Positions 9,730-13,455 of a stretch of 38,562 bases of DNA are shown one piece after another. The position numbers and the translations under genes are program-made. The stretch is from Parcubacteria group bacterium (GTDB lineage: Bacteria; Patescibacteriota; Minisyncoccia; Phycocordibacterales; Phycocordibacteraceae). The stretch is from contig JAQBRE010000006.1 in the NCBI GenBank assembly GCA_028286605.1, forward strand, positions 1 to 38,562, written 5' to 3'. The notes below the pieces were generated by a model. The model saw only the letters and a list, made by a program, of their open reading frames with translations, had not been told where the DNA came from and searched no databases. How positions within the stretch are numbered: position 1 is the first letter of the stretch; each line of letters begins with the position of its first letter.

Positions 9730-10977
9730 ATGGACCTGGTTAAAGATCTTACCGCACGCGGCCTTATAGAACATACCTCTGCCGATCTTCCCGTCATTCT
9801 GGGGAAGAAGCGCACCGTGTATCTAGGCGTGGACCCGAGCGCGGACTCGATGCATGCCGGCCACCTGATGGTGGTGCTTACGATGCGTCGTCTTGCACAG
9901 GACGGTCATAAGATCATATTGCTCGTGGGCGGCGGTACCGGCATGATCGGCGACCCGCGCGAAAGCGGCGAGCGTCAGCTCGCCGACAAGAAGGTAATCG
10001 ATCGTAACAAGAAAGCGCTCAAGGCACAGATGCAGCAGATCGTCGGCACGAAAGTGAAGCTCGTCGATAACGCAGACTGGCTGCTTAAGATTAAGCTCGT
10101 CGATTTCCTCCGTGACATCGGCAAGCATTTCACCGTGAACGAGCTCATCAAGCGAGACATCATCAAACGCCGTCTTGATAATCCGGACGACAGCATTTCA
10201 TACACCGAGTTCGCATACAGCCTTCTTCAGGGGTATGACTATTTCGTATTGAACCAGAAATATAAGGTTGACCTGCAGATCGGCGCGTCGGACCAGTGGA
10301 CGAACATTCTTTCAGGCGTTGAGCTCATTCGTCGCAAGCTTGGCAAGGAAGCGTTCGCGCTCTGCACGCCGCTCGTTACAGATGCGAACGGAAAGAAATT
10401 CGGCAAGAGCGAAGGGAACGCCGTCTGGCTTGCGGCTTCGAAGACGTCACCCTTCACCTTCTACCAGTTCTGGTTGAATCAGCCGGACACGAATGTCGAA
10501 CGGTATCTGAAATTCTTCACCTTCATGCCGGTGATGGAGATTGATGCGCTCTGCGAACTGCATCGCCGCAACCCAGGACGCCGTGATGCGCAGCGCATGC
10601 TTGCGCGCTTGGTTACAGAATTGGTACATGGGAAAGATGCGGCGATGCGCAGCATCGCCGTCTCGGAAGCACTCTATGGCGAGCGTGAACTCAGCTCGCT
10701 TTCTCCGGAAGAACGTATGATGATTCTTTCTGAAGCGCCATCTCTTAAGATCACGCAGGCACAGCTCACCGAAGGGTACAGCGTCGTAGACGCCCTCATC
10801 GGCAGCAGCCTCGCTCCTTCCAAAGGAGAGGCGAAGCGGCTTGTCGAAGGGAATGGTGTTTCTCTTAATGATGAGAAAGTTGAGTCAGTAGACGCACAGC
10901 TCGCATCTGAACACTTCCAGAACGGACTGGCACTTCTCAAGCGTGGCAAGCAGTTAGCTGTGCTTTCGCTCTCATAA
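9730..10977 (+). CDS. tyrS: Tyrosyl-tRNA synthetase
   Basis: Class I synthetase charging tRNA-Tyr. The 415-residue protein has the HIGH-type motif as HAGH (residues 42-45, in PSADSMHAGHLMVV), the tyrosine-binding segment LLQGYDYFVLNQKYKVDLQI with GASDQW, the KMSKS-type motif as KKFGKSEGN, and a C-terminal S4 RNA-binding domain (about 350-415, LAPSKGEAKRLVEGNGVSLN). The KFGKS form and HAGH place it with the TyrRS subgroup that has HxGH. The cognate tRNA-Tyr gene lies about 680 bases downstream. Confidence 0.97.
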   Translation: MDLVKDLTARGLIEHTSADLPVILGKKRTVYLGVDPSADSMHAGHLMVVLTMRRLAQDGHKIILLVGGGTGMIGDPRESGERQLADKKVIDRNKKALKAQMQQIVGTKVKLVDNADWLLKIKLVDFLRDIGKHFTVNELIKRDIIKRRLDNPDDSISYTEFAYSLLQGYDYFVLNQKYKVDLQIGASDQWTNILSGVELIRRKLGKEAFALCTPLVTDANGKKFGKSEGNAVWLAASKTSPFTFYQFWLNQPDTNVERYLKFFTFMPVMEIDALCELHRRNPGRRDAQRMLARLVTELVHGKDAAMRSIAVSEALYGERELSSLSPEERMMILSEAPSLKITQAQLTEGYSVVDALIGSSLAPSKGEAKRLVEGNGVSLNDEKVESVDAQLASEHFQNGLALLKRGKQLAVLSLS

Positions 10978-11028
10978 AATTCAGTTTTTCTTTAGAACTA
11001 TTTTAAATAGTTTTGACCACTGATTTGC

Positions 11029-11034
11029 CATACT
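11029..11034 (+). promoter_or_regulatory. Possible -10 for the LAGLIDADG-like ORF
   Basis: CATACT preceded by TGC (extended -10 shape), 6 bases before ATG 11041. It again points to a leaderless start. Confidence 0.4.
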
Positions 11035-11040
11035 TGGCGA

Positions 11041-11694
11041 ATGAGGCAACCAGCAGCAATCTCTCCAGACAAGCAGCATGCAGTCATCAGCCTGTACGAA
11101 GGTGGGATGAGCGCTCCTATGCTTGCACAATATTTTGCAGTGAGCCTTGGAGCGATTTACTATGTTCTTCGCCATAACAATATTCCGCGTAGGACGAAAG
11201 AGCACAGTAATTCTATTCGCTTCGAAGCGTTGCCACTTTCATATGAGATAAAGACAGATCTCACCCCGGAAGAAGAGAGGCTCAAGATTGCCGCAGTCAT
11301 GCTGTATTGGGCTGAAGGATACAACGTTGGAAAAGGTGTGGTTGATTTTTGTAACTCTGATCCGGATATGGTGGTTTTGTTTTGGAAATTCCTTTCTACT
11401 GTTTGCAATGTAGACAAGAGCCGTGTACGAATGAAGCTCTATTGCTATGAAGGACAGGATATTCCTTCGATTCTTCAGTTTTGGAGCACCTTGCTTTCTA
11501 TACCTGAGGAGCAGTTCACCAAACCCTATATAAAGAAGCAGGCTGAGCCTGGCCCACGAGGGCCAGGCATGATTCACGGCCTTGTACATGTTCGGTATTG
11601 TGATACAAAGTTATTACGTCAGATACTTGTCTGGATAGATGAATATCGTGTCGAATGCGTCGGTGGCAGAGCGGTCAATTGCGAGCGGCTGTAA
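11041..11694 (+). CDS. HTH plus LAGLIDADG-like protein overlapping tRNA-Tyr
   Basis: A 217-residue protein. The N-terminal 55 residues look like a resolvase-type helix-turn-helix (KQHAVISLYEGGMSAPMLAQ ... YYVLRHNNIPRRTKEHS). The rest resembles the degenerate LAGLIDADG-fold proteins found in many CPR genomes (KIAAVMLYWAEGYNVGKG, VDFCNSDPDMVVLFWKFL). The catalytic acidic residue expected at the end of the first LAGLIDADG helix appears replaced in the YWAEGY segment, so activity is uncertain. The last 12 codons and stop lie inside the tRNA-Tyr gene; the stop TAA is made by the anticodon loop. Confidence 0.6.
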   Translation: MRQPAAISPDKQHAVISLYEGGMSAPMLAQYFAVSLGAIYYVLRHNNIPRRTKEHSNSIRFEALPLSYEIKTDLTPEEERLKIAAVMLYWAEGYNVGKGVVDFCNSDPDMVVLFWKFLSTVCNVDKSRVRMKLYCYEGQDIPSILQFWSTLLSIPEEQFTKPYIKKQAEPGPRGPGMIHGLVHVRYCDTKLLRQILVWIDEYRVECVGGRAVNCERL

Positions 11695-11742
11695 CCCGCT
11701 TGACTTCGGTCTACGAAGGTTCGAATCCTTCCCGGCGCACCA
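11657..11742 (+). tRNA. tRNA-Tyr (anticodon GTA)
   Basis: A full class II cloverleaf. Acceptor GCGTCGG pairs with CCGGCGC (one G-T pair); D stem GCAG/TTGC; anticodon stem AGCGG/CCGCT with loop CTGTAAC and anticodon GTA at 11691-11693. It has a long variable arm with GAC-TTCG-GTC, T arm GAAGG-TTCGAAT-CCTTC, discriminator A and an encoded CCA. The long variable arm and GTA anticodon identify bacterial tRNA-Tyr. tyrS lies just upstream, a close synthetase-tRNA association. Its 5' part overlaps the 3' end of the preceding ORF. Confidence 0.97.
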
Positions 11743-11745
11743 GAG

Positions 11746-11776
11746 AAAACAGCAAGCCTTCGGCTTGCTGTTTTCA
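11746..11776 (+). terminator. Terminator after tRNA-Tyr
   Basis: 13-bp perfect stem AAAACAGCAAGCC / GGCTTGCTGTTTT with a TTC loop, followed by CATTTA. Confidence 0.92.
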
Positions 11777-12483: not shown

Positions 12484-13455
12484 ATGAACCAAGGCACGCC
12501 CGTTCTCCTCTCCGGCATCAAGCCGACCGGCGAGATCCATATCGGCAACTATTTCGGCGCAATCAAGCAGCTGGTGGATCTTCTCAACACCGGCGAATAT
12601 CGGGGCTATATTTTTATCGCTGATTATCACGCGCTCAACTTCGTACAGGATGCTGCAGAGATGAAGCGCCTCACGCGCGAGCTCGCCCTCACGTACCTTG
12701 CCTGCGGCCTTGATCCTGAAAAGGTCGTGCTCTTCAAGCAGTCTGATGTCTCTGCACATACCGAGCTTGCGTGGATCTTCGATACCATAACCACGATGCC
12801 GTATCTCATGCGCGCACATGCGTTCAAGGATGCAGAAGCGAAGAATAAGGAGATCAGTGTTGGAAGCTTCAACTATCCGATGCTCATGGCGGCAGATATC
12901 CTTCTGTATGACGCCGCAGTGGTACCGGTGGGGCAGGATCAGAAGCAGCACATCGAATACGCACGCGACACCGCTGAGAAGTTCAATCGCATCTTCGCAA
13001 AAGAAAACGAAGGTACCTTCGTGCTACCGAAGCCGCACATAATGCCCGACGTCGCTATTGTTCCCGGAACAGACGGACAGAAAATGTCTAAAAGTTATGG
13101 AAACACGATTCCGCTATTTGCATCACGCGAAGTGCTCACGGAGAAGGTCATGGGAATCGTCACGGATTCCGGTGGCGACCGTCCTGAAAACGTCTACGCG
13201 ATTCATCGCCTCATAAAGAGCGAAGCCGAGCTCGCACCGATATACGAAGAGCATAAAGGGAAGTACAAGGCACTCAAGGAAGCGCTTATCGAAGACCTCG
13301 ATGCCTTCATCGCTCCGATGCGCGAACAGTATGAAGCGCTTTCGCAGGACAGCGCATTTGTTGATGCAGTACTAGAGAAGGGCGGCGAAGCCGCCCGCCA
13401 AGCTGCGAACACGAAGATGGCAGCCGTTCGTAAAGCGATTGGTGTTTCAGCGTAA
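12484..13455 (+). CDS. trpS: Tryptophanyl-tRNA synthetase
   Basis: Class I synthetase charging tRNA-Trp. The 323-residue protein has the HIGH-type motif HIGN at residues 19-22 (KPTGEIHIGNYFG), the bacterial TrpRS dimer and substrate region (MLMAADILLYDAAVVPVGQD with QHIEYARDTA), and the KMSKS loop at residues 200-204 (DGQKMSKSYGN). Length is normal for bacterial TrpRS. It is a single gene between a terminator upstream and a small cassette gene downstream; the start at 12484 lies right behind an extended -10 element. Confidence 0.97.
   Translation: MNQGTPVLLSGIKPTGEIHIGNYFGAIKQLVDLLNTGEYRGYIFIADYHALNFVQDAAEMKRLTRELALTYLACGLDPEKVVLFKQSDVSAHTELAWIFDTITTMPYLMRAHAFKDAEAKNKEISVGSFNYPMLMAADILLYDAAVVPVGQDQKQHIEYARDTAEKFNRIFAKENEGTFVLPKPHIMPDVAIVPGTDGQKMSKSYGNTIPLFASREVLTEKVMGIVTDSGGDRPENVYAIHRLIKSEAELAPIYEEHKGKYKALKEALIEDLDAFIAPMREQYEALSQDSAFVDAVLEKGGEAARQAANTKMAAVRKAIGVSA

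Follow-up and report, generated by a model that had tools for sequence, protein, structure and literature searches.

Candidate free-standing homing genes lodged directly 5′ of tRNA genes in Patescibacteria

Homing endonuclease genes are associated with RNA genes in several known systems. SegB of phages T4 and T6 is a free-standing GIY-YIG homing endonuclease encoded in phage tRNA clusters, which cuts within tRNA genes and spreads by intronless homing (PMC2988022, PMC13096335). Endonucleases encoded by group I introns in tRNA genes are reported to target the anticodon region. In insertions of the rRNA genes of CPR bacteria, LAGLIDADG endonucleases have been described, among them I-ShaI, which has a single motif and was shown to be a homodimer (PMC11270868), and homing genes also occupy rRNA spacers of the same phylum (PMC8172020). 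In the collaborative homing of phages, the site of a free-standing endonuclease is also occupied by a group I intron; the same source covers intronless homing (PMC3984707).

The gene family described here resembles SegB in being free-standing among tRNA genes, but it is chromosomal and LAGLIDADG-type, with one clade per tRNA, whereas SegB is phage-borne, GIY-YIG and not isotype-faithful; unlike SegB, it also lies between promoter and tRNA and is accompanied by changes of the anticodon stem. Its proposed target is the one of intron-encoded tRNA endonucleases, but these are encoded inside a group I intron of the tRNA, whereas the present genes lie outside the tRNA and mostly lack an intron. With I-ShaI the family shares the phylum, the LAGLIDADG superfamily likeness and the single motif, but the I-ShaI group sits inside rRNA introns or insertions, and PMC11270868 does not mention tRNA. 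Our literature search, in which subscription journals were thinly covered, found no prior report of tRNA-parked homing genes in Patescibacteria.

The window, that is, the whole 38,562-nt stretch of DNA analysed, belongs to the 805-kb genome, in 7 contigs, of an uncultured bacterium, the named relatives of which are Kaiserbacteria and other Parcubacteria/Patescibacteria. The ORF under study lies between tyrS and the single match to tRNA-Tyr in this genome, in the following arrangement:

9730–10977, + strand: tyrS, directly 5′ of the ORF (PF00579, E 9.5e-74)
11013–11034, + strand: candidate ORF promoter, with TTGACC at 11013–11018, a spacing of only 10 and an extended −10 element TGCCATACT at 11026–11034, 6 nt before the ATG
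11041–11694, + strand: homing-endonuclease-like ORF, 217 aa, apparently leaderless and without a Shine-Dalgarno sequence
11065–11229, + strand: N-terminal helix-turn-helix (HTH), residues 9–63 (AF2 model, pLDDT 92.5; HTH Pfam families are found in many family members)
11302–11325, + strand: LYWAEGYN, a LAGLIDADG-like motif whose E92 and G93 do not vary across the family and which aligns with LYVAEGDK in I-DmoI
11656–11694, + strand: C terminus and stop of the ORF over the 5′ half of tRNA-Tyr, taking in 38 nt of the tRNA
11657–11742, + strand: tRNA-Tyr(gta) (ARAGORN; Rfam RF00005, 54.7 bits)
11684–11700, + strand: anticodon arm AGCGG-CTGTAAC-CCGCT, which departs from the ORF-free consensus ACAGG-CTGTAAA-CCTGT
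11745–11776, + strand: terminator-like inverted repeat with a T run, 3′ of tRNA-Tyr, read by eye from the sequence

The inverted repeat presumably ends a putative ORF–tRNA transcript. No intron family matched within the window and the tRNA-Tyr is uninterrupted, so that the ORF is not intron- or intein-borne. Close downstream lies a second class I aminoacyl-tRNA synthetase gene of the W/Y type (12484–13455, PF00579, probably trpS), preceded by a GreA/GreB-like gene.

An earlier note had read the end and stop of the ORF as tRNA-Tyr sequence, with the TAA coming from the anticodon loop, and both features hold, within the 38-nt overlap. Its count of twelve tRNA-derived codons is correct for eleven: codons 207–217 are tRNA-Tyr sequence entirely, whereas codon 206 is shared, being composed of T11656 and tRNA bases G1-C2. 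The stop codon at 11692–11694 is made of anticodon bases 2–3 and base 37. This overlap is not a matter of chance, because most Tyr-linked orthologues have it too, at −38, and members at other tRNAs show recurrent overlaps of their own (−10, −15 and −87). The stop lies inside the tRNA in 41 of the 87 co-oriented members, with preferred end points at base 10 (n = 11; TAG formed by T8-A9-G10), base 15 (n = 7) and base 38 (n = 11; the TAA of Tyr).

The tRNA thus physically supplies the C terminus, as had been proposed, but this appears incidental and the tail dispensable, because 6 of 21 Tyr-type homologues end 1–15 nt short of the tRNA and, in family alignments, conservation of the protein ceases before the tRNA is reached. 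The identical frame and TAA in most Tyr-type orthologues would suit a tail that is a functional, selected part of the protein, which is how a coevolution of ORF and tRNA would be read. We nevertheless consider this very improbable and dropped it for lack of conservation: besides the homologues that do without it, the tail tracks the tRNA sequence rather than protein conservation, and the last block of the model has low confidence (pLDDT 61). The overlap would rather be a by-product of an ORF that abuts a tRNA without a private stop. For annotators, it is a warning that ORFs may end inside tRNAs.

Comparison with relatives supports insertion at the 5′ side of the tRNA, which had been suggested from the window. 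Of 62 ORF-free genomes of the genus, 47 have the tyrS stop no more than 100 nt from tRNA-Tyr (median gap, 29 nt), and these empty sites, tyrS-29 nt-tRNA-Tyr, carry a strong promoter, TTGAAA-17-TATACT/TATAGT, about 9 nt 5′ of the tRNA. Occupied and empty alleles of one site are therefore both present, as expected of a homing gene. The synthetase is the ancestral upstream neighbour of tRNA-Tyr in the genus and stands outside the element. Its position directly upstream of the ORF was noted correctly, but the three genes do not form a cluster in the sense first suggested: the ORF interrupts an older adjacency, and outside the genus it keeps tRNA-Tyr with no tyrS in the searched stretch. A functional tyrS–ORF–tRNA trio was accordingly dropped, since the ORF tracks the tRNA. 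The tyrS/tRNA-Tyr gap of some ORF-free genomes holds non-homologous inserts of 406–672 bp (L072, L151, L165, L170, L172 and L175).

The ORF lies between the tRNA promoter and the tRNA. Promoter scores immediately before the tRNA were 9.05 in ORF-free genomes (6.5 for shuffled sequence) versus 7.3 in ORF-bearing ones (6.9 shuffled); in the latter the tRNA-proximal promoter is missing and a promoter instead precedes the ORF, its −10 element usually ending 6 nt from the start codon. In orthologues this promoter is clear, TTGAC(C/T)-16/18-TATAAT-like, with the −10 element ending 6 nt before the ATG and no Shine-Dalgarno sequence, whereas the match in the window's genome is weak. Because the promoter has been swapped to an ORF start without a Shine-Dalgarno sequence, the ORF probably lacks a leader, and one transcript probably serves both the ORF and the tRNA. 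Such a joint transcript is plausible, as is processing that limits ORF expression; RNase P RNA and tmRNA are both encoded in the genome, so that leader removal and rescue of stop-less messages would be possible.

Next, we collected the family from 77 of 148 related genomes, 23 named loci and 78 of 287 genomes drawn across the phylum, oriented each locus by its ORF and recorded the position of the nearest tRNA. Every one of 105 distinct readable loci was in contact with a tRNA, versus 29 of 546 control ORFs, which were the other ORFs of at least 130 codons within the same tRNA-rich loci and served as the null for tRNA adjacency. In 87 loci a co-oriented tRNA starts −100 to +120 nt from the ORF stop, and five more are co-oriented before a tRNA-Arg with a 180–200-nt intron; ten are divergent at the tRNA 5′ end (Val, one Trp and one intron-containing fMet) and three convergent with tRNA-Ile(tat). 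The 30 best loci of the phylum-wide draw were likewise all at a tRNA. The tRNAs used are those for Tyr, Ile, Gly, Trp, Arg, Ala, Gln, Met, Lys, Phe, Ser, Thr and Val, and on a tree of 107 proteins the 24 tRNA labels cost 24 changes (minimum 23; shuffled 78.8), that is, a protein clade keeps its tRNA across distant hosts. A tRNA-Ile with a TAT anticodon occurs in these genomes and is a frequent seat of the family (for example, L015, L027 and L096). At one IMG/VR contig (L307:594–1382), a complete tRNA-Glu is followed directly by a family ORF and then by a second copy of the tRNA 3′ end alone, with a different T-stem; the ORF seems to have inserted at the 3′ end of the tRNA and to have displaced the original one. 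A search for displaced tRNA remnants around the ORFs found none, the top matches looking like complete neighbouring tRNAs. A phage origin was dropped, as the family had no match in 50,697 phage records and a single IMG/VR locus.

The distribution is patchy and partly horizontal. With 10 carriers on a 64-genome tyrS tree, the ORF required 9 state changes (random, 9.4), and the ORF tree conflicted with two tyrS clades, chosen after the tyrS tree had been seen (AU test, p 0.033 and 0.039). A minority of copies in the phylum-wide draw have internal stops, and one locus (L201) retains an ORF remnant at a wild-type tRNA-Trp; such patchiness with decayed copies is expected of homing genes. Intact copies are under purifying selection, with dN/dS of 0.11–0.24 where dS is not saturated.

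The protein is LAGLIDADG-like without being a proven member of that superfamily. In the domain that follows the HTH, E92, G93, N105, W148 and G180 are invariant in the family alignment, and the LYW.EG.K motif, in which all 67 members share E92 and G93, has the acidic residue and glycine of a LAGLIDADG helix. The name given to the ORF at first reading is fair, if weakly founded for this protein: the family profile reaches I-DmoI (E 0.004, LYWAEG.K against LYVAEGDK) as the best PDB match for the catalytic domain and the only homing enzyme, a weak and partial match; the ORF protein by itself matched no curated LAGLIDADG model in Pfam, and 5 of 67 members weakly match LAGLIDADG_3 (best E 0.0085). 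I-DmoI is a two-domain enzyme from an archaeal rRNA intron. Structure models were confident (pLDDT 92.5 and 92.8), and the order of elements is compatible with an alpha-beta-beta-alpha-beta-beta-alpha core in which strands 3 and 4 are separated by an additional helix, but the top PDB matches of Foldseek, for the full model and for the domain, included no LAGLIDADG protein. The arrangement differs from that of WhiA in that the HTH is N-terminal, and no WhiA match is listed for the family.

The reading of the ORF as a homing gene is, in our view, best supported by a second family that occupies the same position. In one genome (G064; L184/L345), the gene between tyrS and tRNA-Tyr is an unrelated one, which encodes an HTH protein of 260 aa with two LAGLIDADG motifs of canonical form (LAGLIDADG_3, PF14528, E 2e-17) and ends at base 10 of tRNA-Tyr. 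Its relatives with readable flanks (loci of the second family: L184/L345, L346, L347, L348, L350–L369 and L356) are nearly all directly 5′ of, and co-oriented with, tRNA-Tyr, tRNA-Ser (four isoacceptors) or tRNA-Gln(ctg), and the family has weak WhiA matches. The window's genome itself carries a second-family gene before tRNA-Ser(gct) (L356, G000:C3:207329–207910); together with the window ORF, its first-family members at Gln, Met and an intron-containing fMet bring the number of tRNA-linked genes to five.

Group I introns occur at some of the family's loci. An fMet-type tRNA of this genome contains one (RF00028, 43 bits) and has a family ORF divergent from it (L002, G000:C3 around 226650), and family ORFs also adjoin intron-containing Arg, Ile, Thr, Asn and Phe tRNAs (L032, L103, L111, L124, L128, L298, L299, L303, L293 and L302), with group I matches of 64–81 bits at four of these loci. 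By position, the members next to Arg, fMet, Ile, Thr, Asn and Phe tRNAs with introns recall collaborative homing. Such introns are common in the order, where they interrupt the anticodon loops of Thr, Asn, fMet and Leu tRNAs, and 81 of 119 genomes have an RF00028 match. None of the 30 strongest group I introns of the relatives adjoins the family, so the link may be coincidence, and a partnership of intron and homing gene was dropped as the general case.

Several resident tRNAs look rewritten as if escaping cleavage. The Tyr consensus arm is present in 41 of 62 ORF-free but 0 of 11 ORF-bearing genomes (p 3.6e-5), and, when each tRNA is compared with the ORF-free one closest to it in the rest of the sequence, 2.4 of 5 stem pairs are changed in ORF-bearing genomes versus 0.45 in ORF-free ones (p 1.8e-6). 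In one tRNA-Tyr pair (L005/L065), all 8 differences fall in the stem, across four pairs and with pairing kept; in another (L007/L174), 8 of 9 do so. L011 is an exception among the Tyr loci. The wild-type stem of tRNA-Trp was found in 18 of 24 ORF-free versus 0 of 9 ORF-bearing genomes (p 1.3e-4), and that of tRNA-Ile(GAT) in 15 of 16 versus 0 of 2. Tree-aware independent pairs pointed in the same direction and were too few for significance. The comparison was ambiguous for Ile(tat), and tRNA-Gly(gcc) had no stem change, with one and the same sequence in several genomes with and without the ORF; the idea that recoding is universal was thus dropped. The new stems have no common motif, which fits escape better than recognition.

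We suggest, with a probability of roughly 0.7, that these free-standing genes are homing genes for which the tRNA leader is a safe site, beside a recoded, resistant resident tRNA. The ORF would be an intron-less homing endonuclease gene inserted downstream of the promoter of the single tRNA-Tyr gene and ahead of its base 1, and a representative of a Patescibacteria family in which each clade has specialised on one tRNA. Insertion would be tolerated because transcription from the upstream promoter could still supply the tRNA, and because RNase P removes a 5′ leader of any length, serving the element as self-splicing serves an intron. The HTH-LAGLIDADG-type protein, probably a homodimer, would cut the matching tRNA gene where the allele lacks the ORF; the near-palindromic anticodon arm is the most likely cut site, and repair would copy the ORF and its linked tRNA into the cut allele. 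The resident tRNA would escape through an anticodon stem recoded with pairing kept (Tyr, Trp and Ile-GAT) or, perhaps, through an intron that interrupts it. Cleavage by RNase P would leave a stop-less message, and hence low expression.

Other readings of the same data have to be weighed. The combination of an HTH with a LAGLIDADG-type domain as in WhiA, the strict tRNA linkage and the purifying selection could also be expected of domesticated, non-cutting regulators that control transcription of the adjacent tRNA. We consider this doubtful, as a regulator would hardly be patchy, with decayed copies, and lacking in close relatives whose tRNA is intact with its own promoter; moreover, the catalytic-type acid E92 is invariant, ORF-bearing tRNAs diverge in various ways that leave no common bound motif, and a canonical endonuclease-type gene occupies the same site.

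That the tyrS/tRNA-Tyr gap can hold other, unrelated genes (L072 and L175) would fit a tRNA 5′ flank that merely tolerates insertions, the ORF being a hitch-hiker moved by an integrase or natural transformation and the stem changes a coincidence or the result of selection by other tRNA-cutting systems. Passive tolerance of this kind seems quite unlikely to us, given that the protein clade predicts the tRNA isotype across orders, that the insertion abuts tRNA base 1, that neither an integrase gene nor tRNA remnants were seen at the insertion, and that stem changes are concentrated in ORF-bearing tRNAs.

On the homing reading, these genes may be natural cleave-and-rescue elements, each combining an isotype-specific endonuclease gene with a recoded, resistant version of its essential target, with RNase P replacing splicing, phylum-wide, at many tRNAs and in at least two LAGLIDADG-type families; we hold the chances of this wider proposal to be about even. 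If true, selfish genes would need no intron to reside in an RNA gene, as the tRNA leader removed by RNase P would be an equivalent safe site. Engineered cleave-and-rescue drives would then have a natural counterpart, many isotype-specific endonucleases would become available along with predictions of their targets, and the unusual anticodon-stem diversity of tRNAs in these bacteria would be accounted for.
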